Of a stretch of 64,000 nucleotides of DNA, positions 8,386 to 55,990 are shown one piece after another. Source of the stretch: Azospirillaceae bacterium (GTDB lineage Bacteria > Pseudomonadota > Alphaproteobacteria > Azospirillales > Azospirillaceae); the NCBI GenBank assembly GCA_028283825.1, contig JAPWJW010000005.1, forward strand, positions 1 through 64,000. Direction: 5' to 3'. A model generated the notes under the pieces. The model did not search any database. It had not been told where the DNA came from and saw only the letters and a list, made by a program, of their open reading frames with translations. The stretch's first letter is position 1; each line of letters begins with the position of its first letter. The position numbers were made by a program, and so were the translations under genes.

Positions 8386-8414
8386 TCCCGCAACCCCAAG
8401 CGGACAACCCAAAC

Positions 8415-8447: not shown

Positions 8448-8451
8448 CTTT

Positions 8452-9369
8452 ATGGTCGAACACCCCTACGCCAGCGGTCTTTCCCCCGTGAAGTCCACCA
8501 AGCCCCCCACCGAGACCTCGACCCTGGAATGGGATGATGTGCGCCTGTTCCTGGCCATCGCCCGGGCCGGTACCTTGAGTGCCGCCGCCCCCCGCCTGAA
8601 CCTGACGCAGCCCACGGCCGGCCGGCGCCTGAAGGCGCTGGAGGGGCGGCTGGGCATCACCCTGTTCCAGCGCACGCCGGCGGGATTCCGCCTGACCGAC
8701 GACGGCGAGGTCATGCTGCAATACGCCGACCGGATGGAGGCCGAGGCGCTGGCCCTGGAGCGGCGGCTGGTGGGGGATGGACGGGGGCTGGAGGGGCTGT
8801 TGCGCCTGTCCTCATCGGAATGGTTCGGGCGCCAGATCCTGGCCCCGGCCCTGGCCGGCTTTTCCATCCGGCACCCCAAGGTGACGGTGGAACTGGTGGT
8901 CGATTCCCGCCTGTTCGACCTGAACCGCCGCGACGCCGACCTGGTGTTCCGTTTCCTGCCCTTCGACGGGCCGGACATCGTGCAGCGGCGGTTCATGACC
9001 GTGCCCTACGGCCTGTACGCCGCCCCGGCCTATCTTGAGCGGCGGGGGATGCCCCGGGGCGATGGCGCCGGCCACAGCCTGATCGCCATGGACAGCCAGT
9101 TGAGCACCCAGGCCGACGTCGCCTGGCTGCGCCGCCATTTTCCCGAGGCGGGTTTCGCCCTGCGCAGCAACAGCCGCGACGTGCAGGCGGCGGCCTGCGC
9201 CGCCGGGGCCGGCCTGGCCGTCCTGCCCCGCGCGGTGGCGGTGGGCCACCCGCTGGTCGAGGTGGACCTGGGCGAGCCGCCGCCGGCGCGGGAGGTCTGG
9301 CTGGGTTATCACCGCGACCTGCGCCGCCTGGCCCGCCTCAGGGCCCTGCTGGACCATCTGGTGGCTTAA
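8452..9369 (+). CDS. LysR-family transcriptional regulator
   Basis: This 305-residue protein has an N-terminal winged helix-turn-helix (about residues 27-85, WDDVRLFLAIARAGTLSAAA, then LTQPTAGRRLKALEGRLG) followed by a periplasmic-binding-like effector domain. It belongs to the short-loop LysR group with a GRRLKALE recognition helix. The listed ATG lies right at the end of the upstream terminator, so transcription probably starts elsewhere or translation begins at a later codon such as GTG 8488. The gene converges on the ABM-domain gene, and its target is unknown. Confidence 0.85.
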   Translation: MVEHPYASGLSPVKSTKPPTETSTLEWDDVRLFLAIARAGTLSAAAPRLNLTQPTAGRRLKALEGRLGITLFQRTPAGFRLTDDGEVMLQYADRMEAEALALERRLVGDGRGLEGLLRLSSSEWFGRQILAPALAGFSIRHPKVTVELVVDSRLFDLNRRDADLVFRFLPFDGPDIVQRRFMTVPYGLYAAPAYLERRGMPRGDGAGHSLIAMDSQLSTQADVAWLRRHFPEAGFALRSNSRDVQAAACAAGAGLAVLPRAVAVGHPLVEVDLGEPPPAREVWLGYHRDLRRLARLRALLDHLVA

Positions 9370-38218: not shown

Positions 38219-38483
38219 TGCGCAAGCCACAGTCCGATGCCGGCGGGCGAGGGGGCTTGACCCCCGCCCGTGATCGGCGCAGAAAGTGAATGCGTCAGGG
38301 TTTCACACCCCGGATGTGGGCTTTATGTGGGCGCCCTTTGGGGCATGCTTCGGCGCATGGCCGCCCCGCATCCCGGCGTTCTGGTGCCGGCGGTTCCCGG
38401 AAACCGTGGCTTTCAGCCGTTCCGCCCAGTCCGCTTCGCCGCCCCCGCCGATCCATAGCATTGACGAATGAGTAGTGAAATCA

Positions 38484-38494
38484 ATTCGATTTGA
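38484..38494 (+). promoter_or_regulatory. ATTCGATT-type motif upstream of the TonB receptor
   Basis: ATTCGATTTGA matches 10 of 11 bases of the motif found at 46057-46068 and, inverted, at 48353-48364. It lies about 155 bp before the TonB receptor start. I infer a site for the LysR regulator at 45082. The rest of 38219-38647 shows no gene. Confidence 0.45.
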
Positions 38495-38647
38495 CGCTAC
38501 CGTCTGCGTAATTGATTTTTTCCACACAAATGGCGCGTTGAACGAATGCCGCATCAAACGGTTTAACGCGACTTCTACTGGCAAAACGGGTGGTGATGGT
38601 CGCCGGCCCCGGGACAGCCGAACCAAGTACGCGAAGTGGGGAAAATC

Positions 38648-40972
38648 ATGGGGAAAGCAACGTCCCGGTCTTCTAATCCGGGCAAGGATGTTCAGACGCT
38701 GGCCGCCCATCTGAAGGCAGGTGCGGGTGTCGGCGCGCTGCTGCTGGGCATGGTGGCGTTCCAGGCCGCTGCGGCGGATGCCGCCGCCCCGGCTGACGCA
38801 GCCCCGGCCGATGGACAGGCCATCCAGGACGTGGTGGTCACCGCCACCCGCCGGTCCCAGCGCCTGGAAGAGGTGCCGCTGGCCGTGTCCGTGATCGATG
38901 GCGCGGTGATGGAACGGCGCGGCCTGGCCGACGTGCAGGACCTCAGCGCCGCCGTCCCCGCCCTGAACTTCCGCACCGGCGCCTCCAACAAGGACCGTGA
39001 CATCTTCATCCGCGGCATCGGCACCGTCACCACCTCGCCGGGCGTGGAGCCGTCGGTGTCCATGGTGGTGGACGGCGTGGTGCTGGCGCGCCCCGGCCAG
39101 GCCACCCTGGACCTGCTGGACATCGACCATATCGAGGTGCTGCGCGGGCCCCAAGGCACGCTGTTCGGCAAGAACGCCACCGCCGGCGTCGTCAACGTCG
39201 CCACCACCAACCCCACCGACCAGTTCCACGGTTATGTCGAGGGGTCGTACTTCAGCGGCGGCGATGAATACCGGGTGAAGGCCGGCATCTCCGGCCCGCT
39301 GGTGCCAGGCAAGCTGGACGGCCTGCTGTCGGTGGTGACCAGCGGCTATGACGGCAATGTCACCAACGCCTACACCAACGACAAGGTCAACGGCTACACC
39401 CACAGCGGCGGCCGGGCCAAGTTCCTGTTCACCCCGTCGGACGATGTGACGGTGACGGTGGCGGCCGACTATCTGTTCTCCCGCGACAGTGTTCCCACCG
39501 GCGTGTTCGCCGCCACGACGCAGACCGCCTATCCCACCAACGCCGTCACCAGCAGCGCACCCCTGGCCGCCGCGCTGAGTGCCGCCAACATCCAGGCGTC
39601 CGGCGACAACACCCGCGTCAACGCCAACACCAACAGCGGCACCAAGGACAACAACGGCGGCATCTCCGCCACGGTGGACTGGTCGTTCAACGGCTACACG
39701 CTGACCTCCATCACCGCGTACCGCAAATGGCAGAACACCCAGTTCCAGGATTACGACCAGCTGTCGCAGCTAACCTCCTCCATCCCGCAGGTGGCCGACA
39801 ACGGCTATCTGCTGTTCAGCCAGTCGTCGGAGGAGGTGCGCCTGGCCTCGCCCAAGGGCGGGCTGATCGACTACGTCGCCGGCCTCTATTACATGCACGC
39901 GGTGGATACCGAGGTGTACGGACGCGGCGTGACGCAGATCTCGGGTGGCAGCCAGGTCACCAACCAGGGCACCGCCCGCTTCGGCACCACCGGCAACAAC
40001 TACGCCGCCTTCGGTGAGGCCAACATCAACTTCACCCCGGACTTCCGCGCCATCGCCGGTGTCCGCGTGGTGCATGACGATCTGGACTACGGCTTCAACC
40101 GCGTCTCCACCTCCGCCACGGCCGTGACCGCCATCCAGCCGGCGTTCAGCAGCAGCGGGTCCACCGGCACCACCGATTATTCCGACCGCCTGGGCCTGCA
40201 ATACGACATCAGCCACGACGTGACGGCTTACGCGACCTACTCGCGCGGCTACATGGGTCCGGCCTATAACGCCTTCTTCAACATGGTGGCCAGTTCCACC
40301 CTGGCGCTGAAGCCGGAAACCTCGGACAGCTATGAGATCGGCCTGAAGGCCAAGGCGCTGGGCGGCAAGTTGCAGGCGGACTTCGCCGGCTTCATCACCA
40401 ACTTCCAGAACTACCAGGCCAACTTCGCCGACACGGTGGGCGGCGCCCTGGTGACCCGCCTGATCAACGCCGGCAGCGTGTCCACCAAGGGCATCGAGGC
40501 CGACATCACCTACCGTCCCATCGACAATCTGGTCCTGACCCAGTCGCTGGCCTGGACCCAGGCGCGTGTCGACCATTTCAACTGCCCGGCCAACGCCGCC
40601 AGCAGCTGCGACATCGACGGCCAGCCGCTGCCCTTCGCCCCGGACTGGAAGCTGAACACCTCGGCGACATACACCATCCCGCTCAACGGCCGGTTCAACC
40701 TGGTGCTGGACACCGATTACCGGTGGCAGAGCAAGGTGCAGTACCAGCTGACCGAGACGCCGGACACCATCCAGGACGCCTACGGCATCTGGAACGCCAA
40801 CATTACCTTCGCCGATGACGATGACGGCCTGCGCGTCACCGGCCTGGTGAAGAACCTCCTGGACACGCACTACTCCTCCTACCTCGCCCACGGCAACCTG
40901 GCGGGCCTGGTGCGGTGGGTGCCGCGTGACGACAGCCGCTATTACGGCATCACCGTGCGCAAGGACTTCTGA
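38648..40972 (+). CDS. TonB-dependent receptor
   Basis: This outer-membrane receptor of about 774 residues has a signal peptide (membrane stretch GVGALLLGMVAFQAAAADA), a TonB box-like IQDVVVTATRR, a plug domain (IFIRGIGTV, DLLDIDHIEVLRGPQGTLFGKNATAG) and a 22-strand barrel ending YYGITVRKDF. ATG 38648 follows a GGGGAAAA stretch; a GTG at 38636 is also possible. The MFS gene starts 2 bp after its stop. The plug and barrel resemble carbohydrate or organic-compound receptors common in oligotrophs more than siderophore receptors, though this is a weak call. Confidence 0.92.
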   Translation: MGKATSRSSNPGKDVQTLAAHLKAGAGVGALLLGMVAFQAAAADAAAPADAAPADGQAIQDVVVTATRRSQRLEEVPLAVSVIDGAVMERRGLADVQDLSAAVPALNFRTGASNKDRDIFIRGIGTVTTSPGVEPSVSMVVDGVVLARPGQATLDLLDIDHIEVLRGPQGTLFGKNATAGVVNVATTNPTDQFHGYVEGSYFSGGDEYRVKAGISGPLVPGKLDGLLSVVTSGYDGNVTNAYTNDKVNGYTHSGGRAKFLFTPSDDVTVTVAADYLFSRDSVPTGVFAATTQTAYPTNAVTSSAPLAAALSAANIQASGDNTRVNANTNSGTKDNNGGISATVDWSFNGYTLTSITAYRKWQNTQFQDYDQLSQLTSSIPQVADNGYLLFSQSSEEVRLASPKGGLIDYVAGLYYMHAVDTEVYGRGVTQISGGSQVTNQGTARFGTTGNNYAAFGEANINFTPDFRAIAGVRVVHDDLDYGFNRVSTSATAVTAIQPAFSSSGSTGTTDYSDRLGLQYDISHDVTAYATYSRGYMGPAYNAFFNMVASSTLALKPETSDSYEIGLKAKALGGKLQADFAGFITNFQNYQANFADTVGGALVTRLINAGSVSTKGIEADITYRPIDNLVLTQSLAWTQARVDHFNCPANAASSCDIDGQPLPFAPDWKLNTSATYTIPLNGRFNLVLDTDYRWQSKVQYQLTETPDTIQDAYGIWNANITFADDDDGLRVTGLVKNLLDTHYSSYLAHGNLAGLVRWVPRDDSRYYGITVRKDF

Positions 40973-40974
40973 TA

Positions 40975-42192
40975 GTGCTCATCGCCCGCCGCTGGATGCT
41001 GGTGCTGCTGATCAGTGGCGGCATCCTGAACTACGCCGACCGCCAGATCATCGCCCTGGTGAAGCCCCTGCTAAGCCAGGACCTGGGCTGGTCGGACGCG
41101 GACTATGGCCAGTTGGCCGCCGTCTTCCAGCTGGCGGCTGCGGCCACCTTCCTCTTCGCCGGGCGCTTCGTCGATCTGGTGGGGGCGAAGTGGGCCAACC
41201 CGCTGGCGGTGGGCTCGTGGAGCCTGGCGGCCATGGCGCATGCCGTGGCCGTCACCCTGCCGCAGTTCCTGATGGCCCGCGTGGCCCTGGGCGCCACCGA
41301 GGCCCTGGGCACGCCCACGGCGGTGAAAACCATCGCGCTCAGCTTCGGCACGGCGGGCCGCACCCAGGCCCTGGGCCTGATGAACGCCGCTGGCAGCATC
41401 GGCGCCATCCTGACGCCGCTGTTCATTCCCGTGGTGGCGGCGCACGTCGGCTGGCGCGGCACCTTCCTCATCACCGGTGGATTGGGTTTTGTCTGGGTGA
41501 TCGCCTGGGTCCTGCTGGCCCGGGGCACGGTGGAGGCACCCCTGCCGGCGGAGGCGGTGCCGGTGCGTGAGGCCGGGCTGTGGCGCCAGGCGCTCAGCGA
41601 CCGGGGCACCTGGGCCATCGCCGGCGCCAAGGCCTTGAGCGACCATGTCTGGTGGTTCCTGCTCTATTGGGCGCCGGACCTGTTCCACCGAATCTTCCAT
41701 CTGGACCTGATGCAGTCCGCCGTGCCGCTGGCCACCATCTATGTGGCGGCGGCGGTGGGGGCCGCCCTGGGCGGTGGCGCCTTCGGCCGGCTGGTGGAAC
41801 GGCGGGGCTGGTCCGCGGAGCGGGCACGCCGGGCCATCTTCCTGGTGTGCGGCCTTTGCGTCCTGCCCCTGCCGCTGGTGCTGAACGTCGATGGCGTCTG
41901 GGCGGCGGTGTGCCTGTTGGGCCTGACGCTGGCGGCGCACCAGGGTTTCTCCACCAACCTGTTCGGCATGATCACCGACATCGTGCCGCCGGCGCGGGTG
42001 GGCCTGGTCACCGGCCTGGGCGCGCTCAGCGGCAACCTGGCCGGCATGGCCATCCTGCAGGTGACCGGCCACGTGCTGGCGGACGGCCACGGCTACGCGC
42101 CCATGCTGGCGCTGGCCTCCGTCTCCTACCTGCTGGCCCTAGGCTGGATACTGCTGCTTCGGGCTCGGCCAAGCTTGGTGGGTGCCACTTAA
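40975..42192 (+). CDS. MFS transporter, ACS (hexuronate/sugar-acid-like) family
   Basis: This 405-residue protein has about twelve membrane helices. ILNYADRQIIALVKPLL followed by DYGQLAAVFQLAAAATFLFAGRFVDLVG resembles ExuT-type anion:cation symporters, which import sugar acids. GTG 40975 lies 2 bp after the receptor stop, so the two form an outer-plus-inner membrane uptake pair. Together with the oxidoreductase and dioxygenase beyond the inserted island, this suggests uptake and catabolism of one organic compound (inference). Confidence 0.88.
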   Translation: MLIARRWMLVLLISGGILNYADRQIIALVKPLLSQDLGWSDADYGQLAAVFQLAAAATFLFAGRFVDLVGAKWANPLAVGSWSLAAMAHAVAVTLPQFLMARVALGATEALGTPTAVKTIALSFGTAGRTQALGLMNAAGSIGAILTPLFIPVVAAHVGWRGTFLITGGLGFVWVIAWVLLARGTVEAPLPAEAVPVREAGLWRQALSDRGTWAIAGAKALSDHVWWFLLYWAPDLFHRIFHLDLMQSAVPLATIYVAAAVGAALGGGAFGRLVERRGWSAERARRAIFLVCGLCVLPLPLVLNVDGVWAAVCLLGLTLAAHQGFSTNLFGMITDIVPPARVGLVTGLGALSGNLAGMAILQVTGHVLADGHGYAPMLALASVSYLLALGWILLLRARPSLVGAT

Positions 42193-42217
42193 CAGGGTGC
42201 ACATGGCCGGTCGAACA

Positions 42218-42682
42218 TCACAGTGCCGGAAATCTGGATGTGAATTCAGGCATCGACGCAATGTCCGGCCGCGTGCTCCGGACATGATCAAAGATGGTTG
42301 AAAGCCCCTCCCTAACGCTCCGCGTGAAATCGGAGACTGGGATTGTGCCCAGCCGGTGGCTCTTGGGCAGTCTTTTTCCTGACGCGTCGGCGTTGGTATA
42401 TATGTCGACCAGATCGCCCTGCCGAGCCAAGGTCATGGAATAATCCAGGAATTTGTCCGCCCATGGTTGAGGGGCCGTGTCGCCGGATTCCAACTTTTTG
42501 GCGATGATGGCGAGTGTCGACAGCATATGCAGGGCCGGGCGGTCGCGGAATAATGCCTGGCTCTGATCAATCCTCATTTCGACATCTCCTTCGATATTGT
42601 TCCAGAGCATCGTCTCGAAATCAAAATACCCCTTGAAGTCATTCTGCAGGTCATTCTTGAGGTTCAGTTTGATGCTCATCAT
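42218..42682 (-). CDS. Hypothetical protein, cut off from its operon by an IS
   Basis: This 154-residue soluble protein is not recognised. It has no membrane segment or known motif, and base composition is lower in G+C than its neighbours. GAGAGA lies before the ATGATG start. If the IS256 element is removed, its start overlaps the stop of the gene now ending at 44148 (ATGA), so the two formed a translationally coupled pair. Its promoter is now separated by 1.4 kb of IS. Confidence 0.6.
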   Translation of the reverse strand: MMSIKLNLKNDLQNDFKGYFDFETMLWNNIEGDVEMRIDQSQALFRDRPALHMLSTLAIIAKKLESGDTAPQPWADKFLDYSMTLARQGDLVDIYTNADASGKRLPKSHRLGTIPVSDFTRSVREGLSTIFDHVRSTRPDIASMPEFTSRFPAL

Positions 42683-42715
42683 TTGTCTCTCGTTGGCGAG
42701 TCGACGGCGCTGGGA

Positions 42716-42724
42716 TAGCCCGCG
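42716..42724 (+). repeat. Target-site duplication, left copy
   Basis: TAGCCCGCG directly abuts the left end of the IS256-type element and recurs exactly at 44149-44157. Confidence 0.9.
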
Positions 42725-44148
42725 GATCGTGTCCCAGGTCGTGGTGTAAGAAGCGCCCGGTCATTTTGGTCTCCGGCGCGTTTGGCCGGGACGATCATGC
42801 GGCGACAGTGGGCAGCATGATGGTTGGATCATCGCCGACGGCGGCGATGGTTTCCAGGGTCATGTAGCGACCGCGCTGAACTGCCCATTCATCGTTGATC
42901 TCCATGAGGACGGCACCCACCAGGCGGGTGATGGCGTCCTCGTTCGGGAAGATACCGACGACCTCGGTACGGCGCTTGATCTCGCCGTTGAGGCGTTCGA
43001 TGGGGTTGGTGCTGTGCAGCTTTGCCCTGTGGGCGGCGGGGAAGGACATGAAGGCCAGGACGTCCTCCTCGGCCTCGTCCATCAGGGCGGCGAGCTTGCC
43101 GACCTTGGGTCGGAGTTGATCGGCGACCTGGCGCCACTGGGTCCGGGCGGCGGTGGCGTCATCCTGGGCAAAGGCGGTGCCGATGAAGGCAGCCACCACA
43201 CGGCGGCCTTGCTTGCCGGCGTGGGCCAAGGCGTTGCGCATAAAGTGGACACGGCAACGCTGCCAGGTGGCACGGAATACGCGGGCGACAGCGGCCTTGA
43301 TGCCCTCGTGGGCATCGGAGACGACCAGCTTGACGCCACCCAGGCCGCGGCGTTTGAGCTTGCGCAGGAACTCTACCCAGAAGGTCTCGGCTTCCGAGGT
43401 GCCGATGTCCATGCCCAGGATCTCTCGCCGACCGTTGGTATTGACCGCCACGGCGATGGTGACGGCCACGGAGACGATGCGGCCGTTCTGGCGGACCTTC
43501 ACATAGGTGGCGTCGATCCACAGGTAGGGCCAGTCGCCTTCCAGCGGCCGTTCCAGGAAGGTCTTAACCCGGCCGTCGATCTCCTCGCACAGCCGGCTGA
43601 CCTGGCTCTTGGAGATGCCGGTCATGCCCATGGCCTGGACCAGGTCGTCCACCGCGCGGGTGGAGACGCCCTGGATGTAGGCCTCCTGGATCACGGCGGT
43701 CAGCGCTTTCTCCGCCATGCGGCGGGGCTCCAGGAAGCCTGGGAAGTAGCTGCCCTTGCGCAGCTTGGGGATGTGCAGTTCCACCGTGCCGGCGCGGGTA
43801 TGCCAATCGCGGTCACGGTAGCCATTGCGCTGAACCAGGCGGTCGGCCGACCGTTCGCCGTGGCCGGCACCGGTCAACTCCTGAACCTCCAGTTCCATCA
43901 GTCGCTCGGCGGCAAAGCCGATCATCTGTCTCAGGACATCGGCGTCTGCGCCCTTTTCAAGCATCACGCGCAGCGCCATCATCGGGTCGGTCATCGTGGT
44001 CACCCTCGGTTGGGGATGTGTTGTGGTGACCAAACTCTACCGAAGAACCGCGATGACCGCCCGCCGTGTCAGGCCTTCCAGCCGGCTATGCCGGCCTCCA
44101 CGCCTGACACGGCGGAGGCGCTCCTACACCACGCAGTGGGACGTGACC
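42725..44148 (-). mobile_element. IS256-family insertion sequence, complete
   Basis: This 1,424-bp element is bounded by imperfect inverted repeats of about 32-33 bp: the left end starts GATCGTGTCCC; the right end read inward starts GGTCACGTCCC; both share CGTGGTGTA and a final GCGCC. The 9-bp duplication TAGCCCGCG flanks it. One transposase gene fills it. The clean target duplication points to a simple transposition event. Confidence 0.93.
42795..43994 (-). CDS. IS256-family transposase
   Basis: This 399-residue Mutator-type DDE transposase has Asp 161 ([10 protein letters not shown]), Asp 227 (LVVSDAHEG) and Glu 333 ([13 protein letters not shown]), plus the family block [14 protein letters not shown] 43994 ([12 protein letters not shown]) has GAGGG upstream; a TTG at 44033 would add 13 residues. 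The frame is intact, so the element may still be active. Confidence 0.95.
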
Positions 44149-44717
44149 TAGCCCGCGTAGATGGTAGCGGCTTGGCCATTCTGGGTGGAAATTATGGTCA
44201 TGATGCTGGTCGGCGTTCCGTCAGCCAACTTGCCGATCGGTGCTCCAAAGTCCTTCGATATCACGGTCGCCGGACTATTCGCCCAGCCGGTTGGAACAAA
44301 TCGTTCACCCTGAACGATTGTTGTTGCGACCATGACGGTGAAGGTGTGGTAGTCGACGTCGAATTCGCTTTTCCCCGTGGCATTGGCGCCTGGGCCATGT
44401 TTCGCGTACGTGTTTGTGAGGAAAGTATTCCAGTCGGGACTGGCCGAGACGTCGCCCCCATAGGGCGTTGGCACGTTTTGATAAGAGCCTGTCGCGGCGG
44501 ACCAAATCATTCCCCCGTCGGGTGGAAATGATAAAGTCCAGAAACTGAACGGCGCGGTCGGGGATGGCTGACCATACACGACGACTTCATTGTCGTCACT
44601 TGAGGGGGATTCTTCATAAAGGGGCCGGATGGTTGAGATTCCAGATGTGCCAGAATCCACTGCCGCTGCCGTCGTATTCACGGTCAATGATGACTGGGTT
44701 CTGCGTGTTTTCTCCAA
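44148..44717 (-). CDS. Hypothetical protein, C-terminus replaced by IS insertion
   Basis: About 189 residues, not recognised: rich in Thr, Ser, Gly and aromatic residues, no membrane helix. Its TAG stop is made of TA from the target duplication and the terminal base of the IS. Joining across the element adds twelve residues (YPSAVDSPTRDK) before a TGA that overlaps the start at 42682. The start is uncertain: TTG 44717 has no good ribosome site. The frame upstream is open to an in-frame TAG at 44739-44741, beyond which the 62-codon ORF lies in the same frame. Confidence 0.5.
   Translation of the reverse strand: MEKTRRTQSSLTVNTTAAAVDSGTSGISTIRPLYEESPSSDDNEVVVYGQPSPTAPFSFWTLSFPPDGGMIWSAATGSYQNVPTPYGGDVSASPDWNTFLTNTYAKHGPGANATGKSEFDVDYHTFTVMVATTIVQGERFVPTGWANSPATVISKDFGAPIGKLADGTPTSIMTIISTQNGQAATIYAG
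44149..44157 (+). repeat. Target-site duplication, right copy
   Basis: TAGCCCGCG, identical to 42716-42724, abuts the right end of the IS256-type element. Confidence 0.9.
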
Positions 44718-44738
44718 AAATCCCAGGAATTCAAGGGG

Positions 44739-44927
44739 CTAATTTGTTGGTATGTCGTCATTGATATTAACTATATCAGTTTGATTCGGTTGTGATTGTT
44801 GCAATATACCATTGGTTATTTGGTATATATTATTGTTTCGTGAGTCATTTATCCACAAATTGGGTTCGGTATTGATATTTTGTTGGGTTCTTAATGCGCG
44901 TGCCGATTGTACGTCCGTGATCTCCAT
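44739..44927 (-). CDS. Small AT-rich ORF (62 residues), unknown
   Basis: Starts with ATG 44927 after GGAG at 6-nt spacing, a strong ribosome site. The product is rich in Asn, Gln and Ile, hydrophilic and without recognisable motifs. G+C is much lower than in the surrounding genome. It is in frame with the next gene (44148-44717), separated by a single TAG and eight codons, so it may be the N-terminal part of a gene interrupted by an amber codon, or a separate small upstream gene. Confidence 0.45.
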   Translation of the reverse strand: MEITDVQSARALRTQQNINTEPNLWINDSRNNNIYQITNGILQQSQPNQTDIVNINDDIPTN

Positions 44928-45081
44928 TTTGATCTCCGTTCCAAATCAAGACATCAATCATGGAGTGCATATCATTGTCGGTTGATAGATTTTTTGGCTT
45001 ATATACGACAGTTATGCAAGCAATGTGGATTGTATATGTCGGCGTGCTAGGTTGCGGTGGCGAGGCGGCCGTGTGACGGCC

Positions 45082-46020
45082 TCAATCAACCGGCCCGCCG
45101 GTTGGATTGGCCAGGCGCTCCACCGCCGCCATGTGTTCCGTGGCCACGTCCTGGATGATCTGGCGGAACTGCGCCACCAGGCCGGGGGTGGGGCCGATGC
45201 TGGTGGCCTCCAGCAAGGTGAAGGTGCTGGCGATGCGGGGGCGGAAGCGGCGGATTTGCGCGCCCAGGCGGGCGAACAGCAGGGCGGAGAACGGCTCCGC
45301 GATGGTGACACCCAGCCCGGCGGTGACGTAGCAATAGGCCGGGAAGGAATGCTGGGTCTCGATCAGCCGGTCGACCACCACGCCCTCCGCCACCAGCATG
45401 CGGTCGATGTCGTCCCACAGGGCGTCGGCCTCGTGCATGGGGCCGATGAAGCGCTGGCCGGCCAGGTCGCCGGCGTGGATGACGCGCTTGGCGCCCAGCG
45501 GGTGGTCCGGCGGCAGCACGCAGACATATTCCGCCGGCACCAGCGGGCTGGTGCGCAGGCCCTGGCGCGGCGGGGCGTTGACGCCCAGGCCAAGATCCGC
45601 CTGGCCCAGGAACACCCGGTCCTCCACCCCATGCTGGCCCTGGGATTCCACCGTGACCTTCACGTCGGGGTACAGGGCGTGGAAGCGCGCCATCACCGTG
45701 GGCAGGATGCCGCCGGCCAGGGCCGACAGGGCGGCGATGCGGATGGTGCCCACCGGATGGGCGCGGATGCGCCGGGCCGCCTGTTTTAACAGTTCCACGC
45801 CCGTGAAACTCTGGTGCACGGCCTCATAGAAACTGTTGGCCTGTTCGGTGGGCACCAGGCGGCGGCCCCGCCGTTCGAACAGGTCGAACCCCACCACCCG
45901 TTCCAGGTCCGCGATCAGGCGGCTGACCGAGGGCTGGCTGATGTTCAGCATGGCGGCGGCGGCGGTGATGCCGCCGCTGGTCATCACGGCGCGGAAGGCT
46001 TCGATCTGTCGGATCTGCAT
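45082..46020 (-). CDS. LysR-family transcriptional regulator
   Basis: This 312-residue protein has an N-terminal winged helix (MQIRQIEAFRAVMTSGGITAAAAMLNISQPSVSRLI, residues 1-36, then DLERVVGFDLFER) and an effector domain close to the CysB/NocR-like group. It is divergent from the Gfo/Idh gene. A perfect inverted repeat, ATTCGAT-N3-ATCGAAT, starts 37 bp before its ATG, and related sites lie before the TonB receptor and the PhyH gene. This makes it the likely regulator of the split catabolic locus (inference). Confidence 0.9.
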   Translation of the reverse strand: MQIRQIEAFRAVMTSGGITAAAAMLNISQPSVSRLIADLERVVGFDLFERRGRRLVPTEQANSFYEAVHQSFTGVELLKQAARRIRAHPVGTIRIAALSALAGGILPTVMARFHALYPDVKVTVESQGQHGVEDRVFLGQADLGLGVNAPPRQGLRTSPLVPAEYVCVLPPDHPLGAKRVIHAGDLAGQRFIGPMHEADALWDDIDRMLVAEGVVVDRLIETQHSFPAYCYVTAGLGVTIAEPFSALLFARLGAQIRRFRPRIASTFTLLEATSIGPTPGLVAQFRQIIQDVATEHMAAVERLANPTGGPVD

Positions 46021-46056
46021 GGGATGGATAGCTTCAGCGGATGGATAGGGAAACCA

Positions 46057-46073
46057 ATTCGATTGGATCGAAT
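46057..46073. promoter_or_regulatory. 17-bp inverted repeat, LysR operator candidate
   Basis: ATTCGAT (46057-46063), TGG, ATCGAAT (46067-46073): exact arms with T-N11-A geometry, in the divergent gap between the LysR and Gfo/Idh genes. It shares ATTCGATTGGAT with the inverted copy at 48353-48364. Confidence 0.65.
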
Positions 46074-46201
46074 GAATGGTGGGTGGGATAAATTAGACTG
46101 TGAAATCCACAGTTCAACACAAAAACGTCCGATAGTATGCGTCATATGAGTCAGTTAATGACGCAAAATTAAATGTTAAATATGGAAAGGGGAAGGTTTC
46201 C

Positions 46202-47305
46202 ATGAGCGCGCGCCTGCGTTTCGGCATCGTCGGTACCGGCATGATGGGGGTGGAGCATATCGCCAGCTTGGCCCTGTCGCCGGAGGTGGAGGTGGCGGCC
46301 ATCGTCGACCCCACCCCCTCCTCGCTGGATTGGGCGCGCGACGCCCTGCGGCGCACGGGCAAGAACGCCGATGTCACCGCCTATGGCAGTGTCGCGGACA
46401 TGCTGAAGGGCGGGCGGCTGGACGGCGTCATCCTGGCCTCCCCCAACCACACCCACCACGATGTGCTGCAGCCCCTGCTGGGCACCGACCTGCACATCCT
46501 GTGTGAAAAGCCGATGTGCGCCGATCTGGACGATGCGGCCCGGGTGGCGGATGCCGCGGCCGGCCATCGCGGCGTGTTCTGGGTGGGCATGGAATACCGC
46601 TACATGCCGCCGGTGGCCCGCTTCGTCCAGGATGTGCATGGCGGCCGGGTGGGGCGGCTGGTGATGCTGTCCATGCGCGAGCACCGCTTCCCCTTCCTGC
46701 CCAAGGTGGGGGACTGGAACCGCTTCAGCCGCAACACCGGCGGCACGATGGTGGAGAAGTGCTGCCACTTCTTCGACCTCATGCGCCTGGTGGTGGGGGC
46801 GGAGGCGGTGCGCGTCTATTGCTCCGGCGCCATGGACGTGAATCATCTGGACGAGCGGTACGATGGTGAGACGCCGGACATCATCGACAACAGCTACACC
46901 GTGGTGGACTTCGCCAACGGCGTGCGCGGCCTGCTGGATCTCTCCATGTTCGCCGAAGGCGCGCAGGAGCAGGAGGAGGTGATCGCCGTGGGTGACCAGG
47001 CCCGCCTGGACGTCACCATCCCCAAGGGCGACCTGGTCTACAGGCCCCGCCGCGCCTTCCGCCGGCCGGACCGGGTGGAGCGGGAACACGTGGCGGTGGA
47101 CCAGGTGGTGCTGGACGCCGGCCACCACCACGGTGCCACCTATTACCAGCACCGCGCCTTCCTGGACGCCATCCTGTCCGGCGGCCCGGTGCAGGTGTCG
47201 GCCGAGGATGGCTACCGCGCCGTGCAGATCGGCGCCGCCGCCGAACTGAGCGCGCGGGAGAAGCGGGCGGTCGACCTGGCGGAGTTTAATACGCGCGGCG
47301 TTTGA
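46202..47305 (+). CDS. Gfo/Idh/MocA-family oxidoreductase
   Basis: This 367-residue NAD(P)-dependent dehydrogenase has the Rossmann motif GIVGTGMMG (8-16) and the family EKP motif (102-104, LCEKPMCAD). GTMVEKCCHFFDLMRLVVG holds the active-site His region. Members oxidise or reduce sugars, inositols and related polyols. GGAAGG precedes ATG 46202. It sits between its likely LysR regulator and a PhyH dioxygenase and probably acts in the same pathway as the TonB receptor and MFS importer at 38.6-42.2 kb. Confidence 0.92.
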   Translation: MSARLRFGIVGTGMMGVEHIASLALSPEVEVAAIVDPTPSSLDWARDALRRTGKNADVTAYGSVADMLKGGRLDGVILASPNHTHHDVLQPLLGTDLHILCEKPMCADLDDAARVADAAAGHRGVFWVGMEYRYMPPVARFVQDVHGGRVGRLVMLSMREHRFPFLPKVGDWNRFSRNTGGTMVEKCCHFFDLMRLVVGAEAVRVYCSGAMDVNHLDERYDGETPDIIDNSYTVVDFANGVRGLLDLSMFAEGAQEQEEVIAVGDQARLDVTIPKGDLVYRPRRAFRRPDRVEREHVAVDQVVLDAGHHHGATYYQHRAFLDAILSGGPVQVSAEDGYRAVQIGAAAELSAREKRAVDLAEFNTRGV

Positions 47306-47325
47306 TCCGTCGGATCAAATGCCCC

Positions 47326-47453
47326 CTCAATCGCCGGGCGCCGGCATCCGCCGGCTTGGGCTTCCTCGATTTCCAGTCCGCCTTCGGCTCCCAGAAATCT
47401 CCGGCGGCCCCAGTCGGGGCCTACAGCGGCATGAGTAAAGTCTCATGCCGCTG
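47326..47453. repeat. Intergenic repeat element, third copy with terminal hairpin
   Basis: The core matches the copies at 25 and 36 kb (CGCCGGGCGCCGGCATCCG, TTGGGCTTCCTCG, CAGTCCGCCTTCGGCTCCC). It ends in a 12-bp hairpin: CAGCGGCATGAG (47424-47435), CTCATGCCGCTG (47442-47453). A separate inverted repeat TTTGATCCG-T-CGGATCAAA (47301-47319) spans the preceding stop codon. It lies between convergent genes. Confidence 0.7.
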
Positions 47454-47503
47454 GTGGTGGGTGAGGATACCCCAGGCGCCGTCGGTGCCCGGGGTTCTTT
47501 GCG

Positions 47504-48265
47504 TCAACTCATCACCCGCTGGCCGCCGCGCACCACCGGCACGGCGTTGCGGCGCAGGTGGCCCGGCCCCGGATCCAGGATGGGCAGGGCGGAATACTGC
47601 ATCAGGTAGACGCGGCGCAGGTGGGGCGTGAGGTTGGGGCCGGTGGCGTGCAGCAGCCGGCTGCTGAAGGCGACGACGCTGCCGGCCGGCACCTCCACCA
47701 CCGTACCCTCCTCCGGCCCGGTCCAGCCGATCAGGTCGCGGGTGGCGGGGTTGCGCTCATGATGCAGGATGGCGTCGCGGCTTTCCGGCACTTGGGTGAA
47801 GGGCAGCAGGTGCACGGTGCCGTTCTCCGCCGTGGCATCGTCCAGCGGGCACCAGCAGGTGAGGTAGGGCGGGTGGTCTGGCGGTCCGCCATTGTATTTC
47901 ATATAGCCGGAATCCTGGTGCCAGCTGAACGCCATGCCGTTGTCCGGCCCCTTCACCACGAACTGGTCGAAGAAGAAATAGGCGTCGGGGCCCAGTGTGG
48001 TGCTGCAGATGTCGGCCATCACCTGGCCGAACAGCACGCCGCGCAAGGCCGGCTGTTCCCGTTGGCACTCCCCGGCGAAATAACGCCGCCCACGGTGGGT
48101 GATGCCGTCGGCGTCCACGCCCAGGGCGTCCAGCCGCGCATCCTCGCGCGCCACGAAGCGCTGGCATTCGGCGCGCAGCAGGTCCAGCGCCGGCCCCAGC
48201 AGGGCGCCTTCGAAGACGGCGTAGCCCTCGGCGGCGAATTGCCGGCGCTGTGTCTCAAAACTCAT
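47504..48265 (-). CDS. Phytanoyl-CoA dioxygenase (PhyH) family protein
   Basis: This Fe(II)/2-oxoglutarate-dependent oxygenase of about 253 residues has the metal triad HxD...H: His 116 and Asp 118 in FSWHQDSGY, His 206 in RLLHATGPN. An Arg at about 217-218 is suited to bind 2-oxoglutarate. ATG 48265 (MSFETQRRQF) is preferred over an upstream extension. It converges on the Gfo/Idh gene. Family members hydroxylate diverse small molecules; the substrate is unknown, but the shared promoter motif links it to the nearby uptake genes. Confidence 0.9.
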   Translation of the reverse strand: MSFETQRRQFAAEGYAVFEGALLGPALDLLRAECQRFVAREDARLDALGVDADGITHRGRRYFAGECQREQPALRGVLFGQVMADICSTTLGPDAYFFFDQFVVKGPDNGMAFSWHQDSGYMKYNGGPPDHPPYLTCWCPLDDATAENGTVHLLPFTQVPESRDAILHHERNPATRDLIGWTGPEEGTVVEVPAGSVVAFSSRLLHATGPNLTPHLRRVYLMQYSALPILDPGPGHLRRNAVPVVRGGQRVMS

Positions 48266-48352
48266 GGTGGTCTTGCCCCCTCGGTGCCGCCCGTTCTTCC
48301 CCATGGGTTTTTCCCGTGACCCGGCCCCATGCTGGCGCCCGTCCGCCGGCAA

Positions 48353-48364
48353 ATCCAATCGAAT
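48353..48364 (-). promoter_or_regulatory. ATTCGATTGGAT motif upstream of the PhyH gene
   Basis: Read on the minus strand this 12-mer is identical to 46057-46068. It is about 88 bp before the PhyH start and in the matching orientation. Confidence 0.55.
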
Positions 48365-48540
48365 GAATTCTGGGGCTCATTCGGCCACGCTATGGATGCC
48401 GGCAATGCCCGGGATACTGGCGCAAGACTTACCTTTCGAGGTAACCCGGCATCCGATTTATTCCATCCCGGTGCGCGGGATCGGCCCAATCATTTGTATG
48501 TTCTTTGATTTTACTTAAGTAGTTTTTGGCGCATTCGTAC

Positions 48541-48900: not shown

Positions 48901-51900
48901 ATGACGAAGCGCAAGATGGTCAGCAAGGCACTGTTGGCCGGTTCTTCCCTGGTGGTTGTCGGCTTGGCGCTGGCGGCACCCCACCCGGCCCGCGCGGCGG
49001 ATTAGCACCATCGGCGGTTCCGTCACCGGCCGCAACTGGCCGGCAACCAGCAACTTCACCATCACCAGCACGGGCACCGTCGCAGGCAGCGTCACCGGCA
49101 CCCTCAGCGGCCTGACCGCGACCGTCACGGCCGGCACGCTGTACAACGCCGGCCACTTGCTGGGCACCGACGCCGGCCTTTCCATCAGCGCCGCCGTCGG
49201 CGCGGTCTACAACAGCATCGGCGGCACCATCCAGGGCGGCACGGCCGGCATCAAGGCCTTCGGCGCCATCACCAACATCACCAATTCCGGCCTGATCAGC
49301 GGCGGCAGTTTCGGCATCAATTCCGGCGCCTCCAGCATCAGCACCCTGAACAATTCGGGCGGCACCATCATCGGCGGCGTCAGCGGTGTGCACACCAACG
49401 TGACCATCGGCACGCTGATCAACAGCGGCACCATCGCCGGCACCTCGCTGTGGGGCATCGGCATGGTCGGCGCCGGCAGCATCGGCACGCTGATCAACAG
49501 CGGCCTGATCACCGGCGGCGGCGGCGCCATCAATGTCGGGTCCTCCTCCGCCACCCTGGGCACCATCACCAATACCGGCACGATCAGCGGTGCCATCAAC
49601 AACGCCTCGGCGGTCAATCTGGTGTTCGTGGGCGGCAGCGGCACCGCCGTCGGCACCCTGACGGGCGGCATCATCTCCAACACCAGCAGCAACGTGATCT
49701 TCGCCGGCGGCACCATGGTGGTGGCCGACACCATCAGCGTCGGCACCCATACGGTGGTGAACGACGGCGCCAACCTGATCATCTCGGGCGCCGACACCAT
49801 CTTGGGCACCTATGCGCAGGCCAGCGGCACCCTGACCGTGGGCGGGGGCGGCACGCTGATCGTCACCGGCGTCGCCAGCATCACCGGCGGCACCATCGCC
49901 GTCGGCGGCGGCACCCTGTCCGCCAATGCGACATACCTGGCGGGCAGTGGCGGCAGCAGCACCCTGATTTCCGCCGGCGTCGGGTCCACCTATGACGGTG
50001 CCGTCATCACCTCCGCTGACGTCACCGGCCTGGCCTACGCGTCCAGCACCGACGGCACCAACCTGGTCGCCAGCATCGGCAACGATTACATCGGCGACGC
50101 CCAGGCCAGCATCGGCAACACCGGCACCATCAGCGCCGTGCCCACCGCCGTCTACGTGGCAGGATCCGGTAGCGTGGGCACGCTGATCAACAGCGGCCTG
50201 CTGTCCGGCACCTCCAGTGGCGTGTCGATCGTCGGTGGCGGCACCATCGTCAATCTGGTCAACCAGACGGGCGGCAGCATCATCAATGGCGTGGTGGTGG
50301 GCGACGGCGGCGTTCTGACATCGCTGAACAATGCCGGGCTGATCTATGGCACGGTCGCTGTGGCTGTGACCGGCAGCGGCACGCTTGGCGCTGGCCAGAT
50401 CGGCACCATCAGCAACAGTGGCACCCTCATCGCCGGCGTCGGCATCGGGGTGGATGCCGGTGGCACCATTGGCACCGTGCTTAACAGTGGCCTGATCATC
50501 GGCGTCGTCGCCGCCGCCTATGTCGTCGGCAGCATCGGCACGCTGGTCAACGATGGCACCCTGCTGGCGCAGGGCACGAACAACTACGCCCTGCTCATGA
50601 CCAGCAGCGGCTCGATGGGCACGCTGGTCAACAGCGGCACCATCGAAGGCGCCATCGCCAACGTCGGATCCGCGGCACTGACCATTGATGGCGGCATGGG
50701 CGGCACCATCGGCACGCTGACCGGTGTCGGCGGCGCCAAGGGCACGATCGTGTCGGTTCCCGATCTGGTTTTCGGCAGCGGCACCCTGGCCCTGAACGAC
50801 GATATCGGCGCCACGGTGCTGAACACCGGTGCCACCCTGCGCCTGGACAACGCCGTCACCATCACCGGCGATTACAGCCAGGCCGGCGGCGGCACCCTGG
50901 CGCTGACGCCAGGCGGCAGCGGCGGCCTGGTCGTCACCGGCACGGCCGACCTCAGCGGCGGCGCGGTGCAGGTCAGTTTCTCCGGCACCGGCAACTACCT
51001 GACGGGCACCCAGACCCTGGTGAGCGGCAGCATCATCGGCACGCCCAATGCCGACATGTCCACCGTCACCGGCCAGGCCGCCACCCTGGTGTCGGGTGCG
51101 GGCGGCCTGTCGCTGGCCATCCTGAACGATTACATCGGCGGCACGCTGGCCAGCCTGGGCAATACCGGCAGCATCGGTGCGGCCACCGCCGTTTATGTGG
51201 CCGCCACCGGCACCTTGGGCACGCTGGTCAACAGCGGCACGCTGTACGGCACGCAGGATTACGGTGTCTTCAACGGCGGCAGCGTCGGCACCCTGGTCAA
51301 CACCCTCGGCGGTGTCATCCGCGCCACCAGCTCGGCGGTGCGTAACGAAGGCAGCCTGGGCACGCTGATCAACAGCGGGCAGATCATCTCCGACGGCAAC
51401 GCCGGCGTCTTCAACGACGCGCAGGGCTGGTTGGGCGTGCTGATCAACAGCGGCACCATCTCCGGCGGTGTCGGCAACGCCGGCACCATCGGCACGCTGT
51501 CCAACAGCGGCCTGATCAGCGGCAGCTATGCCATCTTCAACACCGGCACCATCGGCACGCTGGTCAACAGCGGCACCATCGCCGGCACCATCGAGAACGA
51601 CGCCAGCACCGCCCTGACCATCGTGGGCGGGGCCAATGGCACCGTCGGTACCCTGACGGGTGTTACCGGCCAGGGTGTCATCACCAACACCGCCAGCAAC
51701 CTGGTGTTCGCCGGCGGCAGCCTATTGCTGAACGACAACGTCAACGCCACCGGCCACACGGTGCTGAACACCGGCGCGTCGCTGCAACTCAACAGCATCG
51801 TCACCGTGACCGGCGCCTACAGCCAGACCGCCGGCACCCTGGCGCTGGCCACCGGCGCGTCCCTGGCGGTCACCGGTGCCGCCAGCATCACCGGCGGCGT

Positions 51901-54900
51901 CATTTCCGCCAGCGGCTTCAACGCCAACGCCACCTACATGGCCGGCAGCGCCGTCGGCACCCTGGTCCAGGCGGGGGCCGCGTCCGACTATTCCGGCGCG
52001 ACGGGTGGTGGCCGCCGGCGTCTCCGGCCTGGCGCTGTCCACCAACAGCGACGGCACCAACCTGGTGGCGACCGCCGGCAACGATTACATCGGCGACACC
52101 CAGGCCAGCATCGGCAACACCGGCAGCATCGGCGGTGTCGTCTACGCCGCCGTCGTCGCGGCCACCGGCACCGTCGGCACCTTCACCAACACCGGCACGC
52201 TGGTCGGCACCTCCAGCGCCTCCAGCGCCGCCGGCGTGCGCGTCGTCGGCAGCATCGGCACGCTGGTCAACAGCGGCGTCATCGGCGCCACCGGCAGCCA
52301 TTTCGGCGACGGCGTGCAGAACTACGGCACCATCGGCGCCCTGCTGAACAACAGCATCATCGCCGCCACCATCAGCGGCGCCGGCATCGAGAACACCGGC
52401 CTTATCGGCAGCATCGGCAACACCGGCACCATCAACGCCGTCTATTACGGCCTGAGCAATGTAACCAACGCCACCATCGCGGTGCTGGACAACGGCGGCG
52501 GCATCATCGCCGGCACGGGCGTCCAGAACCGGGGCGTCATCGGCACGCTGATCAACACCGGCCGCATCGGCATCGGCAACAGTCTCGGCCTGTCCACATA
52601 CGACGGCACCATCGGCACGGTGGTGAACAGCGGTGTCATGGGGGGCGGCGGCGGCATTTACGCCGGTGGCGGCGTGATCGGCACCATCGACAACAGCGGC
52701 ACCCTGATCGGCAACAACGCGACCGGCGCCCTCTACATCACCTCCACCGCCACGGTGGGCACGCTGATCAACAGTGGCGTCCTGGCCGGCGACATCCGCA
52801 ACACCGGCGCCGGCGACCTGACCATCGGCGGCGGCACCGGCGGCACGGTGGGCACGCTGACCGGTTACGACCTGACCAGCCAGGGCGTCATCACCAGCAC
52901 CAGCCATGATTTGGTGTTCAGCGGCGGCAACCTGGCGCTGAACGACATCATCAACGCCACCGGCCACACGGTGCTGAATATCGGCGCCAGCCTGGCCCTG
53001 CTGAGCACCCTCAGCATCACCGGCAACTACACCCAGACCAGCGGCACGTTGGGCCTGGGCGCCAACACCCTGGTGGTCAGCGGCGCCGCCAACCTGTCAG
53101 GCGGCACCCTCACCACCGCCCTGCTGGACGCCACCGCCAACTACATCGTGGGCACTGTCGCCGGCACCCTGGTGCAGGGCGGGGCGGGGTCCAGCTACAC
53201 CGGCGTCGAGGTCGCGTCCACCATCGATGGCCTGACGCTGGCCTCGGGTGCCACCACCCTGGGGGCCAACGTCGACCTGCTGCTCAGCAGCACCAACGAT
53301 TACATCGGCGGCACCCTGTCCAGCCTGGACACCAGCGGCACCATCGCCGCGGTGCGCACCGCCCTTTACGTGGCGTCCACCGGCAGCCTGGGTACGTTGC
53401 ACAACAGCGGCGTGCTGGCCGGCAACCAGTACGGCCTCCTCAATGACGGTACCCTCGGCCTGATCGACAACACCGGCACGGTCAGCGGCCTGGTGGCGCT
53501 GTACAATGTGGGTGCCATCGGCACGGTGGTGAACAGCGGCAGCCTGCTGGACGGGGCCTCGGCCGCCGCGGCCGGCCTGAACAACGCCGGCAGCATCAAC
53601 CTGGTGGACAACCAGGGGACCGGCACCATCAGCGGCCAGTCCTACGGCCTGTACAACGTCGGCACCATCGGCGCCGTCAGCAACCAGGGCAGCATCACCA
53701 GCGGCGTCTACGGCCTGTACAACAGCATCGCCGGCACCATCGGCACCATCGACAACCAGGCCACCGGCACCATCTACGGCCAGGCCCACGGCCTGGTGAA
53801 CCTGGGCACCATCGGTGGCGTCACCAACAGCGGCGTGATCGGCGGCAGCACCGGCCTGGGCGTGCGCAACGCCGGCAGCATCGGCAGCCTGGTCAACACC
53901 GGCCTGATCAACGACGCCACCGGCGTCTACAACAGCGGCGTCCTGGGCAGCCTGGACAACAGCGGCACCATCAGCGCCGCCGGCACGGCCATCCAGGTCA
54001 CGGGCGCGGGCACCATCGGCACGCTGGTCAACAGCGGCCTGATCGCCGGCAGCTTCAACGCCCTGGTGAACAGCGGCAGCCTGGGCACGATCGCCAACAG
54101 CGGCACCATCGCCGGCGTCATCCGCAACCTTGCCGCCCAGGATCTGGTCATCACCGGCGGCACCGGCACCACCGTCGGCGTCCTGACCGGCTACACCGGC
54201 ATGGGCAGCATCGTCAGCACCCTGGGCAACGTGGTGCTGGCCTCGGGCAGCCTGTTGCTGAACGACCAGGTGAATGTCGGTACCGGCACCCTGGTCAACA
54301 ACGCCTATTCGGTCTCGCTGACCACGGTGGTCAACGTCACGGGCAACTACAGCCAGTCAACGGGCGACCTGGTGCTCAGCGTCGCGGGCGGCGCGCAACT
54401 GTCGGTCAGCGGGGCGGCCGTCGTCACCGGCGGCACCATCGCCGCCACGGATGTCACCACCGCCGGCAACCTGCTGGCGGGCCAGCGTGGCAGCATCGTC
54501 ATCGCCGGCGGCGCCGGTTCCAGCTACAGCGGCTACGTCCTCAACGGCGTGCAGGGCCAGGAACTGACCGGCAGCGTGGTGGGCAACGACCTGTACACCG
54601 CCGGCGTCAACGACTTTGTCGGCACCATCCTGGGCAGCCTGGGCAACACCGGCACGGTCAGCGCCAACAACGCCGTCTACGTCGATACCGCCGGCAGCAT
54701 CGGCACCCTGGTCAACACCGGCGCGCTGATCGGCCAGGTCGATGGCGTCCAGAACGGCGGCACCATCGTCACCCTGGTGAACGACGGCCTGATCTCCGGC
54801 ACCACCATCGGCGTGTTCAACCGGAAGGCCATCGGCCTGCTGGACAACGCCGGCACCATCACCAGCACCAAGAACGGCATCGCCAACGCCGGCACGATCG

Positions 54901-55990
54901 GCACGCTGAACAACACCGGCCTGATCACCAGCACCATCTATGCCCTGTACAACATCAACGGCAGCATCGGCCTGATCAGCGGCGACGGCACCTTCGCCGG
55001 CAATGTCCTCAACACCGGCGCCCATGGGCTGACCATCGCCGGCGGCACGGCGACGGCGGCCCTGTTCACCGGCTACAACGGCACCGTCGGCACGATCACC
55101 AGCACCGGGGTCGACCTGACGTTCGTCTCGGGCAAGGTGGAACTGAACGACGTCATCGACGTCGGCAGCCACACGGTGGTGAACAACGGCGCCACGTTGT
55201 CGCTGGACAGCACGCTCAGCATCACCGGCAACTACAGCCAAGCCAGCGGCACGCTGGCCCTGGGCACCCTGACGGCGGTGGTCAGCGGTGTCGCCAACAT
55301 CAGCGGCGGCGCCATCAGCGCCAACATCGATGCCGGCGCCAACTATGTCGTGGGCACCAGCAGCGGCAACATCCTGGTCCAGGGCGGTGCCGGTTCCAGC
55401 TACACCGGCGTCAGCCTGACGTCCAACGTCACCGGCCTCAGCGTCACCGCCGAAACCGCCACCATCGGTTCGGGCGTGGATCTGGTCGTGGCCGTCGCCA
55501 ACGACTATATCGGCGGCACCCTGTCCAACCTGGACAACAGCGGCACCATCACCGGCGTCCGCACGGCTGCCTATGTGGCGGCCACCGGCAGCATCGGCAC
55601 CCTGTCCAACAGCGGCCTGCTGGACGGCAGCCAGTACGGGGTCGAGAACCGTGGCACCATCGGCCTGGTCGACAACAGCGGCAGCATCAACGGTTCGGTG
55701 GCCGGCCTGTTCAACACCGTCGGCGGCACCGTCGGTGTCATCGACAACCAGGGCGTCCTCAGCGGCAACGGCTATGGCCTGAACAACGCCGGTGGCGTCG
55801 GCACCATCGACAACCAGGGCACCATCGCCGGCGTGGCCATGGGGCTGTACAACACCGGTTCCATCGACGCCGTCATCAACGACGGCACCCTCGCCGGCGG
55901 CGGCGCCATGGGCCTGTACAATTTGGGGGGCAGCATCGGGTCGGTGGCCAACACCAACCTGATCACCGGCCAGAACGGTGTCTACAACAC
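48901..55990 (+). pseudogene. Giant autotransporter: signal peptide and passenger, frameshifted
   Basis: ATG 48901 (GAGG upstream) begins a clear signal peptide: MTKRKM, a hydrophobic core and a PARAA cleavage site. The frame then stops at TAG 49003 while the passenger continues one base out of phase (ISTIGGSVTG). Two more shifts occur: at 52003-52005 (GGG where GG keeps the frame) and near 55999-56004. Open stretches are therefore about 49001-52005 and 52006-56003. The passenger is beta-helical, with GTL-NSG repeats in modules of about 900-1300 bp. If the shifts are errors, the full protein would have about 4,400 residues. It continues into the 3' segment. Confidence 0.82.

Follow-up and report, generated by a model that had tools for sequence, protein, structure and literature searches.

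The locus and its insertion element

The DNA analysed here (the window) is a 64-kb stretch from an Azospirillaceae bacterium, positions 1 to 64,000 of contig JAPWJW010000005.1 (GenBank assembly GCA_028283825.1). It contains a locus encoding a TonB-dependent receptor, an MFS transporter, a LysR-type regulator, a Gfo/Idh-fold protein (gene sqgA below) and a PhyH-family oxygenase, together with three copies of a putative LysR operator that is the main subject of this report (Table 1). The gene calls made for these five proteins in an earlier, sequence-only reading of the stretch check out, and the insert by which that reading saw the locus split is an IS256-family element.

Table 1. Operators, genes and insertion of the locus, in window coordinates (L021, Azospirillum sp. 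B4; L022, Nitrospirillum iridis).
Feature	Position	Strand	Basis and details
Operator 1, before TonB-MFS	38453..38503	+	distal box CATAGCATTGACGAATG 38454-38470, proximal ATTCGATTTGAC 38484-38495; 50.8 bits; E 3e-9 genome-wide; kept in two genus relatives
TonB-dependent receptor, candidate outer-membrane port for sulfoquinovose glycosides	38648..40972	+	Plug and beta-barrel Pfam domains; 76-77% homologues in same cluster of L021/L022
MFS transporter, candidate inner-membrane importer	40975..42192	+	nearest model ACS-type D-galactonate, 132.8 bits, below cut-off of 395
IS256-family insertion	42725..44148	-	transposase 42795-44033; 9-bp target duplication TAGCCCGCG at 42716-42724 and 44149-44157
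LysR-type regulator, predicted sensor and activator of locus	45082..46020	-	HTH_1 and LysR_substrate domains; T-N11-A box beside own gene
Operator 2, between lysR and sqgA	46026..46076	+	distal box 46027-46043, proximal 46057-46073 (perfect 7-3-7 inverted repeat); 30.4 bits; E 1.7e-4
Gfo/Idh-fold protein, predicted NAD+-dependent sulfoquinovosidase (GH188, SqgA-type)	46202..47305	+	closest structures and active-site residues
PhyH-family Fe(II)/2-oxoglutarate oxygenase	47504..48265	-	PF05721 79 bits (cut-off 22); HxD...H triad H116, D118, H206
Operator 3, before PhyH	48345..48395	-	distal box 48378-48394, proximal ATTCGATTGGAT 48353-48364; 23.9 bits; E 8.2e-4

The interval between the MFS gene and lysR measures 2,889 bp in the window, compared with 2 and 174 bp between the matches in L021 and L022, respectively, where no such insertion lies between MFS and LysR. 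The element is embedded in ∼1.5 kb of further DNA with two short open reading frames (ORFs) that have no Pfam match, and it leaves all three operators intact. The gap between lysR and sqgA is 181 bp.

A bipartite operator before three transcription units

The sequence-only reading had proposed that a 12-mer, ATTCGATTGGAT, ties the locus together, and the motif was tested here in the window and in the genome of 7,162,758 bases (7.16 Mb). Exact copies are present as claimed at 46057-46068 (+) and 48353-48364 (-), as is a 10/11 match at 38484-38494 before the TonB receptor-MFS pair. The perfect 7-3-7 inverted repeat ATTCGAT-TGG-ATCGAAT is likewise found at 46057-46073, but its right arm differs between genera, most relatives showing forms such as ATTCGATTGGATGCGAT, and the repeat was therefore discarded as a conserved unit. 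Genome-wide, the exact 12-mer occurs twice, both times in the studied locus, with a first-order Markov expectation of 0.0016 copies per window and 0.18 per genome; two exact copies by chance are unlikely. Four sites with one mismatch all lie outside the locus. With up to two mismatches, the pattern occurs at 131 genomic places (vs 27 for a reversed control pattern) and three times in the window, where the shuffle mean was 1.33. On the 12-mer evidence by itself the third site is weak, because 11 of 100 window shuffles also reach at least three matches. The genome-wide search that the earlier reading called for favours a regulon in the exact form (two copies) and in that of the full operator described below, whereas the loose form is common.

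The shared motif is real, yet it is only half of a bipartite operator, whose upstream half had been overlooked. LysR-type regulators follow a T-N11-A box rule, and the full 51-nt operator consists of CATA-N9-TATG (T-N11-A) and then ATTCGATTGGAT, which begins 30 nt after CATA and forms the promoter-proximal half. Its architecture was derived from 77 PhyH loci from public genomes and from LysR homologues of 145 related genomes. LysR and PhyH were divergent neighbours in 31 loci (27 fetched by PhyH and four by LysR), and the spacers of these hold one composite site, CATAGTATnnACGTATGA followed by ATTCGATTGGATgCGAT 30 nt after CATA, with variation. After four duplicates were dropped, an ungapped matrix of 51 columns was built from the 27 unique intergenic sequences, none of which came from the genus of the window, and both window strands were scanned. 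The three sites of Table 1 were the sole window positions scoring above zero, the next-best position reaching -11.4 bits. With the right half of the matrix alone the three sites rank first to third; with the left half alone their ranks are 1 (TonB), 3 (PhyH) and 8 (LysR-Gfo). A model using sequence only, made from 18 of the 27 sites and run on the whole genome at E<=10, returned the three window sites and no others; this search scored 150 of 731 first-look candidates, and weak sites could therefore be missed.

The T and A of the distal box are invariant in all 18 aligned sites and, read by eye, present at all three window sites, and the proximal box has T-N11-A at one of the three. The ATTCGAT half is turned toward the target gene each time. 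For a LysR tetramer, the two boxes may represent its recognition site and its activation site. As a separate observation, ATTCGATTTGA occurs exactly in the genome before the TonB gene and at two other places only, L147 (G000:C1:1835440) and L148 (G000:C3:2111726), neither of which the operator model (E<=10) returns.

The 12-mer could also have recurred by chance or be an element of promoters in general, as might be suspected from a two-mismatch frequency that shuffled windows reach 11 times in 100 and from the 131 genomic places. We consider this extremely improbable: the cross-genus matrix and the whole-genome search pick out the three sites, and all three share one distance from the distal half and one direction relative to the gene that they would control. 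As far as sequence allows, the chance-repeat explanation is already refuted. The proposal that one LysR-linked motif joins the receptor, importer, Gfo/Idh and 2-oxoglutarate oxygenase genes is upheld by both the exact and the full-operator searches.

The same arrangement was observed in relatives. Both L022 and L021, which appear to belong to the genus of the window (on that account taken as Nitrospirillum), carry the operator before TonB, before the lysR-adjacent operon and before PhyH, and the matrix scores of the three sites in the two genus relatives are 49.1, 41.0 and 17.9, and 51.2, 20.5 and 6.9. For the N. iridis sites before TonB and PhyH, the genome-wide search gave only weak E-values (0.16 and 0.07). 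In alignments the operator footprints stand out against less conserved flanks, and before TonB conservation extends to further stretches of the promoter. Whole-genome searches of 20 named genomes gave a strong operator (E of the best site <=9.5e-7) in all 15 with LysR in the fetched locus; the five without it had either no operator (three genomes) or partial matches only (two genomes; E 0.09 and 0.40). This comparison is partly circular, as the model drew on nine of the 15 and the matrix on 13, neither using B4 or N. iridis. Close LysR orthologues (E <=1e-109; next 1e-59) and PhyH occur in the same seven of 82 family genomes, three of them among the seven of the genus, and the first 62 LysR residues are 73–95% identical in the 11 orthologues listed that lie beside the same operator. 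SqgA is found in five of these seven genomes and in one other. One of the remaining two (G017) has a GH31 protein 63% identical to a sulfoquinovosidase-like protein near lysR-phyH (L244/L245), and the other (G043) has no sulfoquinovosidase within the 19 kb around the locus (L246).

A predicted sulfoquinovosidase and its related loci

Sulfoquinovose (SQ) is an abundant sulfur-containing sugar of plant membranes. Although the Gfo/Idh protein had been read as a dehydrogenase, its closest structures and active-site residues indicate that it is most likely a GH188 NAD+-dependent sulfoquinovosidase instead. Against solved structures, phmmer placed 8qc2 first (351.6 bits), followed by 8qc3 (345) and 8zn9 (306.7; title 'oxidoreductase, putative', the title alone being considered), and the best other dehydrogenase reached 86.8 bits. 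In the available text of Kaur et al. 2023 (PMC10755693), 8QC2 and 8QC3 are structures of the sulfoquinovosidase SqgA, and six residues of ArSqgA are named for catalysis (Tyr136, His193, His321) and sulfonate binding (Arg166, Leu170, Lys172). All six are identical in the alignment, where Tyr136, Arg166, Leu170, Lys172, His193 and His321 correspond to Y132, R162, L166, K168, H189 and H309; numbering was worked out by hand (chain minus 13), which puts the published Glu163 one residue beside the aligned E160. The three sulfonate-binding residues are reported in 96–98% of GH188 sequences (PMC11465081, available text). The window protein thus resembles SqgA in its catalytic Tyr/His/His, its sulfonate-binding Arg/Leu/Lys and its SQ-type cluster, and differs in that its gene, like those of a PhyH oxygenase and a TonB receptor, stands under a LysR operator, its activity being predicted from sequence.

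SQ is, in our view, the highly probable substrate on these grounds. An ordinary dehydrogenase in a locus for a non-sulfonated sugar acid or an inositol-like compound would suit the likeness of the MFS protein to the ACS D-galactonate subfamily, as well as Pfam and NCBIfam taken alone, by which the Gfo/Idh protein is inositol-dehydrogenase-like (under the curated NCBIfam cut-offs). This alternative is improbable given the large gap in bits between the SqgA structures and the best other dehydrogenase, the retained Arg/Leu/Lys, and the sister clusters in which a sulfoquinovosidase-type GH31 stands in for SqgA. The 'sugar acid' to which the transporter had seemed to point was nevertheless close, since the compound is most likely SQ or sulfoquinovosyl glycerol, an anionic sulfosugar. 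At L034:34-2989 and in its homologues, the GH31 sulfoquinovosidase-like gene adjoins genes for flavoproteins that resemble glycerol-3-phosphate dehydrogenase and GlcD (below curated cut-offs); such neighbours might be expected if sulfoquinovosyl glycerol were the substrate.

Grouped by record title, the 77 PhyH loci comprise 56 proteobacterial ones (L068 being titled only 'uncultured bacterium') and 21 from other phyla. A sulfoquinovosidase gene was present in the stretch fetched for 42 of the 56 (SqgA in 25, GH31 in 17, both in none), a split that agrees with the complementary distribution reported in the available text of PMC10755693. The Niveispirillum-like genome G039 has both SqgA and GH31, at separate places (L247, L249). 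The GH31 representative matched YihQ/sulfoquinovosidase entries at 676–934 bits. An SsuD-like monooxygenase occurs in 27 of the 56 proteobacterial loci, 19 of which also have an aldo-keto reductase, and in L021 and L022 its gene lies between lysR and sqgA. The best structures were 7olf/7oh2 for the monooxygenase and 7bbz for the reductase, which we take to be entries for SQ monooxygenase and 6-dehydroglucose reductase, respectively. Among the PhyH loci of other phyla, one of 21 has such an SQ-type gene.

A proposed LysR-controlled sulfoquinovose regulon and its oxygenase

A conserved LysR operator system on an SQ locus is strongly supported by these sequence comparisons. The explanation we favour, with a probability of roughly 0.87, is a LysR-controlled regulon for the uptake and catabolism of SQ or SQ-glycerol. 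SQ glycosides would enter through the TonB-dependent receptor and then the MFS importer, the GH188-type NAD+-dependent sulfoquinovosidase would free SQ, and the PhyH-family Fe(II)/2-oxoglutarate oxygenase would take part in the pathway. LysR would occupy the bipartite operator (distal T-N11-A and proximal ATTCGATTGGAT, 30 bp from centre to centre) in front of all three transcription units, activating them on sensing an SQ-derived inducer, and the operator beside lysR suggests autoregulation as well. Whereas the conservation and specificity of the operator, the linkage of the genes and the conservation of residues were observed directly, we infer the substrate, transport direction, binding, activation, inducer and PhyH reaction.

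Several observations weigh against this scheme. The window locus has no sulfo-SMO monooxygenase or reductase; the best monooxygenase of the genome (73% identical to the L022 gene) lies at C5:736497, 690 kb away in another cluster, and the best reductase is not close, being 40% identical to that of L061. No operator was found at the unlinked monooxygenase cluster by the genome-wide model, nor by the matrix, which gave nothing above zero in L142, and the monooxygenase was on this ground rejected as a fourth regulon member. Of the 56 proteobacterial PhyH loci, 14 lack a sulfoquinovosidase in the stretch fetched, and within the genus SqgA and PhyH are found in only three of seven genomes. Conversely, PhyH was present in none of 25 SqgA loci drawn regardless of PhyH (stretch fetched up to ∼10 kb on either side, shorter near contig ends), and 18 of 20 PhyH genomes tested have a monooxygenase. 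Lastly, among weaker LysR homologues of the family (L105-L127; 38–44% identity where listed), 20 of 23 have an upstream site above zero by the matrix, and similar DNA may thus be recognised by LysR proteins other than that of the window. The finding suggests a larger LysR subfamily whose operators follow common rules and whose members might cross-talk. Many of these sites take the form CATAACATT...AATTCGATTTGACGATTATG.

The unlinked cluster, L142 (G000:C5:727000-746500), holds the SsuD-like monooxygenase, a TonB receptor, an MFS protein 51% identical to that of the window and a LacI regulator, with a sulfate permease further off; it may be a second locus of this genome for sulfonates or SQ.

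The PhyH protein itself is well defined as a member of its fold. The model has a pLDDT of 94.2, and the triad is invariant in an alignment of 47 sequences. EvdO2 is nearest by both sequence and Foldseek, and VIA-align ranks SnoK and others level. Among the 50 Foldseek and VIA-align matches listed, most are PhyH-type and other Fe/2-oxoglutarate oxygenases with diverse substrates, and none is described as a sulfonate enzyme. The absence of PhyH from the 25 SqgA loci, 17 of which have the monooxygenase (15 with a reductase too), marks it as an accessory, characteristic of the LysR-type clusters and of related ones in sphingomonads. As both enzymes occur in 18 of the 20 genomes tested, PhyH is no simple substitute for the monooxygenase, and its candidacy as a plain replacement is weakened. 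It may instead be that, with operator and LysR as described, PhyH has another substrate, sulfonated or glycosidic, or else a supporting part in the pathway, and that the unlinked flavin monooxygenase removes the sulfonate from SQ itself (a split sulfo-SMO pathway). We give this version a little less than an even chance: all 18 alphaproteobacterial PhyH genomes tested have the monooxygenase and 16 a SquF-like reductase, and PhyH homologues of other phyla are not near SQ genes in 20 of 21 cases. Against it stand two gammaproteobacterial metagenome-assembled genomes (L055 and L076, possibly incomplete), with TonB, GH31, MFS and PhyH but no monooxygenase at E 1e-60, in which PhyH may have a desulfonating role, and the family genomes, in which LysR tracks PhyH (7/7) more tightly than SqgA (5/7). 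We propose only tentatively that PhyH is an SQ-cleaving oxygenase; our guess, equally tentative, is that SQ would be hydroxylated at C6 and sulfite would leave.

Known SQ systems offer partial parallels. Like the sulfo-SMO (sulfo-ASMO) clusters of Agrobacterium and Novosphingobium (PMC12890257, PMC9594981, available text), L021 and L022 hold an SsuD-like monooxygenase beside sqgA, and many sphingomonad relatives add an aldo-keto reductase or flavin mononucleotide reductase; the monooxygenase of the window genome, in contrast, stands apart and outside the operator. In the available text of these reviews, the terms 'PhyH', 'LysR' and 'TonB' are absent from PMC12890257, and 'phytanoyl', 'LysR' and 'TonB' from PMC9594981. 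The sulfo-ASDO/sulfo-SDO system of Marinobacterium, with SqoD, likewise places an oxygenase of the Fe(II)/2-oxoglutarate type among clustered SQ genes and was compared by description only (PMC12890257, available text). An SqgA-GntR-AKR (aldo-keto reductase)-TRAP cluster of another proteobacterial class (L220) contains a TauD-family oxygenase with no significant similarity to the window PhyH. By analogy with this one cluster SqoD is probably TauD-type and hence not PhyH-like, which speaks indirectly against PhyH as an SqoD orthologue. The regulator CsqR (YihW) belongs to the DeoR family. As a local regulator of SQ genes it resembles the window protein (E. coli yih genes; PMC10991401, available text), which is of LysR type with a bipartite operator.

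Elsewhere in the window, overlapping ORFs of great length occupy positions 48956-62184 (+). Their tandem repeats are GC-rich and degenerate (18–72 nt units), those ORFs tested have no Pfam match, and the probable product is a surface protein of giant size built of repeats. At 1726-8721 each strand carries a long open frame (2331 and 2203 aa), with a Pfam match in neither. Rfam gave no window match at gathering thresholds, and in a plasmid DNA search (130 records) the IS region alone matched among the 20 matches listed.

SQ is produced at 10 billion tons a year (PMC10755693, available text). Literature searches on SQ with LysR, TonB-dependent or phytanoyl listed no system of the kind described here, and a LysR-type SQ regulon was found neither in these nor in searches on sulfoquinovosidase with transcriptional regulator and on SQ with Sphingomonas or Novosphingobium, an absence that is weak since most subscription papers lay outside the search; little was found on how aerobic bacteria sense and import SQ. 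A stable-isotope study describes SQ-assimilating Elstera without a canonical SQ cluster (PMC13372026, available text), so that there may be uncharacterised SQ routes. A LysR-type SQ regulon might span Azospirillaceae, sphingomonads and Phenylobacterium, with a core target, PhyH, that would cleave the C-S bond of SQ independently of the flavin monooxygenase and of the (probably TauD-type) SqoD and be fed by a TonB-dependent sulfosugar port, although on balance we find this broad form doubtful. What is gained is a named, predicted substrate, a 51-nt operator with which further SQ regulons may be sought, and a conserved oxygenase of the PhyH family.

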